A stretch of 64,000 nucleotides of DNA from Siphonodentalium dalli (lineage: Eukaryota > Mollusca > Scaphopoda > Gadilida > Siphonodentaliidae): NCBI GenBank assembly GCA_032622095.1, contig CP136066.1, forward strand, positions 202,390,978 through 202,454,977, written 5' to 3'. The translations under genes were made by a program, and so were the position numbers. The notes below the pieces were generated by a model that made no database searches, was not told the origin of the DNA, and saw nothing but the letters and a program-made list of their open reading frames with translations. Positions 26,301 through 39,321 of the stretch are shown here, piece after piece (within the stretch, counting starts at the first letter, position 1; every line of letters starts with the position of its first letter).

Positions 26301-29300
26301 TTATGAACCTTAATCTTGTATAAATATTTGACGATGAGTTTTTTATGAACCTTAACCTTGTATAAATATTTGATGATGAGTTTTTATGAACCTTAATCTT
26401 GTATAAATATTACGATGAGTTTTTTATGAACCTTAACCTTGTATAAATATTTGACGATGAGTTTTTGTGAACCTTAATCTTGTTTAAATATTTGACGATG
26501 AGTTTTTATGAACCTTAATCTTGTATAAATATTTGACGATGAGTTTTTTATGAACCTTAACCTTGTATAAATATTTGACGAAGAGTTTTTTATGAACATT
26601 AATCTTGTATAAATAATACGATGAGTTTTTTATGAACCTTAACCTTGTATAAATATTTGACGATGAGTTTTTATGAACCTTAATCTTGTATAAATATTTG
26701 ACGATGAGTTTTTTATGAACCTTAACCTTGTATAAATATTTGACGATGAGTTTTTATGAACCTTAATCTTGTATAAATATTACGATGAGTTTTTTATGAA
26801 CCTTAACCTTGTATAAATATTTGACGATGAGTTTTTGTGAACCTTAATCTTGTTTAAATATTTGACGATGAGTTTTTATGAACCTTAATCTTGTATAAAT
26901 ATTTGACGATGAGTTTTTTTTAACCTTAACCTTGTATAAATATTTGACGATGAGTTTTTTATGAACCTTAAACTTGTATAAATATTTGACGATGAGTTTT
27001 TGTGAACCTTAATCTTGTATAAATATTACGATGAGTTTTTTATGAACATTAACCTTGTATAAATATTTGACGATGAGTTTTTTATGAACCTTAACCTTGT
27101 ATAAATATTACGATGAGTTTTTGTGAACCTTAACCTTGTATAAATATTTGACGATGAGTTCCCATGTGATACATGCTACTTTCAAAATTCGATGACTGAA
27201 ACCTTTGTCTAATTTCACTGAATAAGGTAATATGACGACAAACATTCTCATGTTCCAATATTCAACGTTGATGTCCAGTGAATATTTTACCTGGAAGTTT
27301 TATTTCGCTCGGCCACACGCATGTGATATTGCTATTTACGTTTTAAAAAGGGCAACTGGTATTCAGGGACTTCTATGTATGCCTTCCCATTTCTAAATAA
27401 TTCTATATTAGATTATCACTGACCTCACTAACACTTGAAACTTGAAAATGTCAGAACCCGATCGCATGCGTGTGACACGGCGTAAACACTGTAAAATAAT
27501 ATTGTGATTAATATTGTGATTAGTATATCATTTGCTCCAATATACCACGTTGATTTCCAGTGAATATTTTATTTGGAAGTTTTATTTCGCTCGGTCACAC
27601 GCATGTGATATTGCTATTCAGGTTTTTAAAAGGGCAACTGGTATTCAGGCACTTCTATGCATGCCTTCCCATTCCTAAATTCTATATTAGATTATCACTG
27701 ACCTCACTAACACTTGAAATTTGAAAATGTCAGAACCCGATCGCATGCGTGTGACATGGCGTAAACACTGTAAAATAATATTGTGATTAATATTGTGATC
27801 ATTTGCATGCATACTTACATAACATGTATATACTTGTCATTTTTTATATGCTCTCCTAAATTGAGGAGGTTAACAATAATATTTAACCTTGTATAAATAT
27901 TACGATGAGTTTTTGTGAACCTTAACCTTGTATAAATATTTGACGATGAGTTTTTGTGAACCGACTCACCAGATCTAACGGGGTACCTTCCTGTGAACCG
28001 ACTCACCAGATCTCATGGGGTACCTTCCTGTGAACCTACTCACCAGATCTCACGGGGTACCTTCCTGTGAACCGACGCACCAGATCTAACGGGGTACCTT
28101 CCTGTGAACCGACTCACCAGATCTAACGGGGTACCTTCCTGTGAACCGACTCACCGGATCTAACGGGGTACCCTCCTGTGAACCGACTCACCAGATATCA
28201 CGGGGTACCTTCCTGTGAACCGACTCACCGGATCTAACGGGGGTACCGTCCTGTGAACCGACTCACCAGATCTAACGGGGTACCTTCCAGTGAACCGACT
28301 CACCGGATCTAACGGGGGTACCTTCCTGTGAACCGACTCACCGGATCTAACGGTGTACCTTCCTGTGAACCGACTCACCAGATCTCACGGGGTACCTTCC
28401 TGTGAACCGACTCACCGGATCTAACGGGGTACCTTCCTGTGAACCGACGCACCGGATCTAACGGGGTACCTTCCTGTGAACCGACTCACCAGATCTCAAG
28501 GGGTACCTTCCTGTGAACCGACTCACCAGATCTCACGGGGTACCTTCCCGTGAACCGACTCACCGGATCTAACGGGGTACCTTCCTGTGAACCGACTCAC
28601 CAGATCTAACGGGGTACCTTCCAGTGAACCGACTCACCGGATCTAACGGGGTACCTTCCTGTGAACCGACTCACCGGATCTAACGGTGTACCTTCCTGTG
28701 AACCGACTCACCAGATCTCACGGGGTACCTTCCTGTGAACCGACTCACCGGATCTAACGGGGGTACCTTCCTGTGAACCGACGCACCGGATCTAACGGGG
28801 GTACCTTCCTGTGAACCGACTCACCAGATCTCAAGGGGTATCTTCCTGTGAACCGACGCACCGGATCTAACGGGGTACCTTCCTGTGAACCGACGCACCG
28901 GATCTAACGGGGTACCTTCCTGTGAACCGACTCACCAGATCTCAAGGGGTACCTTCCTGTGAACCGACGCACCGGATCTAACGGGGTACCTTCCTGTGAA
29001 CCGACTCACCAGATCTCACGGGGTACCTTCCTGTGAACCGACGCACCGGATCTAACGGGGTACCTTCCTGTGAACCGACTCACCAGATCTCACGGGGTAC
29101 CTTCCTGTGAACCGACTCACCAGATCTCACGGGGTACCTTCCTGTGAACCGACGCACCGGATATAACGGGGTACCTTCCTGTGAACCGACTCACCAGATC
29201 TCACGGGGTACCTTCCTGTGAACCGACGCACCGGATCTAACGGGGGTACCTTCCTGTGAACCGACTCACCAGATCTCACGGGGTACCTTCCTGTGAACCG

Positions 29301-39321: not shown

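Follow-up and report, generated by a model that had tools for sequence, protein, structure and literature searches.

A minisatellite derived from the exon 1–intron 1 boundary of a steryl-sulfatase-like gene in the scaphopod Siphonodentalium dalli

In amphioxus, tandem repeats that span exon–intron boundaries are recognised as a class of their own under the name 'mirages' (PMC3087553, PMC3902484). In the accessible portions of these reports, the repeat units of Adh3 are given as 10–72 bp in length, the globin genes BflGb6 (with six and three units in its two haplotypes) and BflGb9 are further members (PMC3087553), and PGBD5 and troponin C are added to the class (PMC3902484); the repeats reportedly leave regular splicing undisturbed (PMC3087553). 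Under the Rogers model, introns are gained when AGGT-containing segments are duplicated in tandem, a case of which is described for the potato RdRp gene in the available part of PMC4974935. Among the papers listed by a literature search, taken by title and the start of the abstract and with subscription literature mostly outside its coverage, none describes mirages outside amphioxus. No exon-boundary arrays were found in the accessible text of papers on earthworm metallothionein (PMC12783039) and on intronic minisatellites of C. elegans (PMC4039745), the former of which mentions duplications of the fourth exon.

Here, we describe an array in the first intron of a molluscan gene, located in a window (the whole stretch of DNA analysed) of 64,000 nucleotides at C6:202,390,978–202,454,977 of a genome of 2.23 Gb in nine contigs. 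We consider it probable that the array is a very large exon–intron-boundary minisatellite of the amphioxus mirage kind, which arose by two founder duplications followed by expansion and is tolerated by its host gene.

The host gene and the array in its first intron

The host gene is steryl-sulfatase-like, lies on the minus strand and is apparently intact. Exon 1 (39051..39321, 271 nt, phase 1) encodes the N-terminus of the protein up to a stretch of 18 residues and matches the steryl-sulfatase 8eg3 in a phmmer search (E = 1.7e-25). It is followed by the authentic 5′ splice site (GTGAGT; 39045..39050), by an intron of 15,281 bp (39050–23770) and by exon 2 (23641..23769, 129 nt), which begins with GTATGGCAGC after the acceptor CACAG; exon 3 (22190..22638, 449 nt) and exon 4 (20133..20382, 250 nt) follow on the same strand. 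Joining exons 1–4 gives 366 open codons. Exons 5 and 6 were located by tblastn only, outside that join and beyond the window (positions 9751–9464 and 7301–6975 of L011), and contain no stops. The product matches steryl-sulfatases, the best of the mollusc proteins being 52% identical to it, and has a Pfam Sulfatase match at E = 2e-48. Exon 1 was read in seven paralogs, five on C6 at 202.34–202.61 Mb and two at 86 Mb, and the position of intron 1 is common to all seven (the focal gene and six others, with the same donor position).

TRF reports a single array of 286.1 copies with a 37-bp consensus at 27955–39075. With the units cut at the donor, the donors run from 39050 down to 27969 on the minus strand and delimit 285 units with 286 donors (the authentic and the last included), which occupy 11,082 bp of the 15,281-bp intron, a length taken from one assembly. 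The source of the unit is the 3′ end of exon 1 together with the 5′ splice site and first intron bases, as the first-pass annotation of this DNA had proposed. It had also placed the start of the array within the exon, and the terminal 46 nt of exon 1 (39051..39096, minus strand) are indeed the first repeat copy. The 15 residues that they encode do not include the catalytic Cys of CTPSR, which corrects the annotation's description of an expanded catalytic motif. Its 46-bp unit is correctly derived from the exon end and first intron bases and is the minority form, with 59 of the 285 units; the other 226 are shorter (215 of 37 bp, nine of 38 bp, one of 36 bp and one of 34 bp), TTC replacing 12 of the exon nucleotides in them. 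Compared with the consensus derived from the exon, a 46-bp unit has 1.3 mismatches on average and a 37-bp unit 1.5, and 81 distinct unit sequences are present. The 46-bp units become scarcer with distance from the exon (20, 16, 9, 10 and 4 in successive fifths) and the final 48 units are all of the short form. The donor GT is kept in 284 of the 286 donors, 240 of which read exactly GTGAGT and 42 GTGCGT, a weaker donor site.

A pattern of the 46-bp type, searched with up to three mismatches, has 60 matches genome-wide, all 60 of them in the window (the 59 units and the exon), and a pattern of the 37-bp type has 225, likewise all in the window; both patterns read backwards gave no match in the 2.2-Gb genome. 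The resemblance between units and exon is therefore not a chance match, and a dispersed satellite DNA family was rejected on the same counts, the unit patterns being found at this locus only. No Rfam family (at the gathering threshold) and no tRNA was found in the window.

At the distal end of the array the last donor, GTGAGTCGG, runs into TTCACAAAAACTCATCG (27901..27969, minus strand), which is taken to be where intron 1 originally began, and past this junction the sequence enters a 41-bp AT-rich intronic satellite, two copies of which, containing GGTTCACA, lie at 27883..27962 (minus strand). The main block of this satellite (25619..27160, minus strand; 37.5 copies, with six exact copies of GGTTCACAAAAACTCATCGT) holds GGTTCACA as six exact 20-mers. 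Judged by these matches, GGTTCACA is native to the neighbouring satellite, which supports reading the far end of the array as original intron and not as a broken unit. Intron 1 also contains a 282-bp direct duplication (27254..27799, 1.9 copies, without strand assignment).

Several features elsewhere in the window and genome were observed in passing. Near-identical open frames of 69 codons (AKPD.VNYPVVLPSTWPCVKCQQERE) at 15097–15306 (minus strand) and 17239–17448 (plus strand), inverted and about 2 kb apart, may be the termini or other portions of a mobile element. Retroelement-like fragments occupy 42259–44734 (minus strand), of which 44225–44734 scores 26.1 bits against endonuclease-reverse transcriptase PF14529, just under the cut-off of 27.4, and 43260–44228 has no Pfam match. 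Three tandem open frames at 49093–55657 (plus strand) belong to a family of von Willebrand factor A domain proteins; the best named mollusc and hemichordate matches of the first frame are 55–57% identical to it over 98–100%. At C2:149.8–150.6 Mb, protein kinase frames form a large cluster in tandem; many of them share one score and a length of 281 codons, and the spacing is often 2.4 or 2.9 kb. An open COX1 copy in a nuclear contig (C1:108,127,492–108,128,832, minus strand), readable with the invertebrate mitochondrial code and 97% identical in protein to that of Siphonodentalium lobatum (other matches listed, 78–82%), is a recent insertion or a misassembly. This similarity places the host among the scaphopods, near the genus Siphonodentalium.

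Proposed founder duplications and growth, and predicted coding consequences

In the ancestral state, the exon end would have been joined to GTGAGTCGGTTCACAAAAACTC, which remains at the distal end of the array, and the single-copy boundary is reconstructed in its array-free form as GTGAGTCGGTTCACA. This boundary would then have been tandemly duplicated twice with different breakpoints, across 46 bp between copies of GAGTCGG and across 37 bp between copies of ACA. GAGTCGG occurs in the exon (CCGAGTCGGGC) and at the donor (GTGAGTCGGTT) exactly 46 bp apart, the one-unit spacing on which the first-pass annotation had built a microhomology-mediated founder event, and one 46-bp tandem duplication of the reconstructed boundary yields the 46-bp unit (7 bp of homology, eight equivalent breakpoints). 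That founder accounts for the 46-bp form; the annotation had missed a second, probable one behind the main 37-bp unit. ACA occurs in the exon (TAACAGGAAGG) and in the intron (TTCACAAAAA) 37 bp apart and, among single tandem duplications, the short unit is produced only at a period of 37 (3 bp of homology, four equivalent breakpoints). On these breakpoints, the likeliest source of the short form is a second founder duplication at the ACA microhomology, beside the 46-bp one at GAGTCGG. Alternatively, a deletion combined with an insertion could have turned the 46-bp unit into the 37-bp one, in which case the array would end distally in a truncated short unit. If there were two founder duplications, both of their junctions are preserved and the birth of a minisatellite can be read base by base.

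Slippage would subsequently have multiplied the two unit types, together with unequal exchange or conversion acting on blocks that reach several hundred base pairs or more. A 14-unit word, LLLSSLSSSLSLSL, recurs five times, whereas none of 2000 shuffles contained this word twice or more, and a word of 37 units is present twice. A 452-bp block is 99.8% identical to a block 3,008 bp away; the best 14 block pairs listed range in length from 148 to 452 bp and are offset by 1.3 to 7.9 kb, with identities of 98.6 to 100% in the 13 for which identity was computed. Such repetition of blocks is the pattern that unequal exchange or conversion would leave.

The array is wholly intronic and does not lengthen the coding exon. 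When 0 to 285 units are retained before exon 2 (k = 0–285), the frame into exon 2 is open from the first donor only (k = 0). In-frame products from later donors were rejected as a candidate, with all 285 giving stops; these share a common stop 12 codons past the boundary glycine because all of them include the first unit. Because the frame to exon 2 stays open from no donor but the authentic one, the gene depends on the choice of that donor. Splicing there would remove the whole array and splicing from any later donor would lead to an early stop. We infer from this arrangement that the first donor is the one actually chosen, and that the array is probably tolerated because it lies wholly downstream of it. 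The locus thus offers a natural experiment in 5′ splice-site choice, with 286 competing near-identical donors in one pre-mRNA and an open frame from the first only.

Distinct variants in the exon part of the units lean towards synonymous changes (13 of 20 possible, compared with 16 of 52; Fisher p = 0.015, with 11 of the 285 units left out for indels and the unit copies non-independent). Plain neutrality does not predict this lean, which accordingly counts against the explanation preferred here. We give it little weight, because the unit copies are non-independent and because variants reading TAA (six units) and TGA (seven units) are present. Coding constraint on the array, as a candidate that yielded this weak lean, was set aside. 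The three commonest substitutions in the exon part of the 37- and 46-bp units (AGG>AGA, GTG>GTT and TCT>TCC) are synonymous in the exon frame, a weak observation confounded by block duplication.

Paralogous genes and alternative explanations

A second array of this kind is found in the paralogous steryl-sulfatase gene L030 (C6:202,603,200–202,609,500), where the end of its own exon 1 with the donor GTATGC is present in 37 copies, 36 of them intronic, at 3378–5303 of L030 with spacings of 37, 46, 55, 58, 79 and 83 bp. Among the units closest to the end of the intron, some (of 79 and 83 bp) hold more intron sequence. Donor arrays are thus present at the same exon in two of the seven paralogs. 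A satellite shared with related introns and bearing no relation to the exon, which the annotation had set against its own reading, was looked for in the six other paralogs: five have no exon-end copy in intron 1 (L027, L028, L029, L031 and L032) and the sixth, L030, has an array derived from its own exon. L029 and L032 carry short repeats (17–32 bp) of intron-start sequence without the exon. The exons 1 of the focal gene and L030 are 67% identical over their last 205 nt, and since each array follows its own exon at this divergence, we take the two arrays to have been born independently. L029 is the sister of L030, 96% identical to it over the same 205-nt stretch, and the two form a ready control pair with and without an array. 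In L043, a sulfatase gene at C9:151.04 Mb that we take from its peptide to be of the ARSB type, the exon end with GTAAGT is present in three copies, the authentic one included (839–1049); seven homologues of this exon (L067–L073, about 550 bp each) have a single copy each, L067 being the sister gene.

These three independent sulfatase cases (the focal gene, L030 and L043, with its sister L067 single) would fit a genome in which tandem duplication readily arises at splice donors, with transcription-linked damage as one conceivable cause; the arrays would then reflect a hotspot and not single accidents. We regard this as possible and on balance unlikely. None of 20 P450 donors, chosen from 93 matches and each searched over 500 bp of intron, has exon–donor copies, and one (L051) has a short intronic repeat; for the sulfatases up to 2.5 kb of intron was searched. 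Of 46 sulfatase exon matches chosen, 41 were covered by DNA, four of these being C-terminal exons for which no donor is expected; the 41 yielded two donor-side arrays, those of the focal gene and L030, but four had one or two short matches on the acceptor side. The L043 exon is outside the 41 and was found through its tandem repeat. DNA folding at the boundary is not unusual (z = 1.76 for the focal gene and 0.06 for L030), and a DNA hairpin hotspot found no support when eight boundaries were folded (z = −1.39 to 1.76), with 196 of 200 shuffles of the focal boundary folding at least as well. Better tolerance of duplications at donors would, moreover, give the same picture. As the base-rate sample is small and centred on sulfatases, no general hotspot is claimed. 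A broader proposal, that first-exon donors of the steryl-sulfatase family may be a recurrent minisatellite nursery in which transcription or splicing favours duplication, and that up to 286 donors may act as a U1-binding or splice-choice array influencing expression, appears improbable.

That the array is kept for a role in RNA, with about 285 extra donors binding U1 snRNP or diverting splicing to nonsense-mediated decay and so tuning sulfatase output, we hold to be quite improbable. The retention of GT in 284 and of exact GTGAGT in 240 of the 286 donors, the premature stop from any later donor and the occurrence of donor arrays at the same exon in two of the seven paralogs agree with such a role, but donors would be kept without selection in young, homogenised repeats, five of the seven paralogs manage without an array, and 42 donors carry the weaker GTGCGT. 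Shared ancestry, in which an array in the common ancestor of the paralogs was later homogenised to each exon, is highly unlikely: the exon positions at which the long and short units of the focal and L030 arrays begin lie a few codons apart at most, and both have 37-bp units, yet these agree at only 21 of 37 positions and exon-end copies are missing from L029, so similar to L030, and from L027, L028, L031 and L032. An assembly artefact or over-expanded repeat is equally remote, for although the source is a single assembly, the 81 distinct units among 285 are ordered in a structured and non-uniform way, the array is continuous with single-copy exon on one side and with the intron satellite on the other, and a second, different array exists at L030.

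Comparison with known systems

Our preferred explanation, a boundary minisatellite with two founder duplications, places the array beside three described systems. Its tandem growth is shared with ordinary minisatellites of introns, the 41-bp array of the same intron (25619–27160) among them; its unit combines exon and donor, whereas that of the adjoining array appears to be AT-rich intron sequence. As in intron gain under the Rogers model, a coding segment has been duplicated in tandem along with splice signals; the array differs in that no new intron has been created, intron 1 occupying the same position in seven of seven paralogs.

The closest likeness is to the amphioxus mirages. Here too, tandem repeats span an exon–intron boundary, the authentic exon boundary and the open frame are retained (exons 1–4, 366 codons, as read from the sequence) and the splice signals are repeated in many units (GT in 284/286 and GTGAGT in 240/286). 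The host is a scaphopod mollusc and not a cephalochordate, a difference of taxon that is no part of the mechanism. The focal array also has two interleaved founder units, its kind arose again independently in the paralog L030, and it comprises 285 units over 11 kb, compared with the six and three units of the BflGb6 haplotypes in the accessible account. The first-pass annotation had called the expansion unusual. Boundary repeats, being a named class in those amphioxus reports, are not unusual as such; the unusual features that remain are the size of this one, its molluscan host and the paralog with an independent array. The kind is already known, and what is new is the scale, the phylum, the double founder and the repetition in a paralog. 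As far as the literature search extends, the locus carries mirage minisatellites from lancelets to molluscs, in an array far longer than the globin mirages described in the available text.
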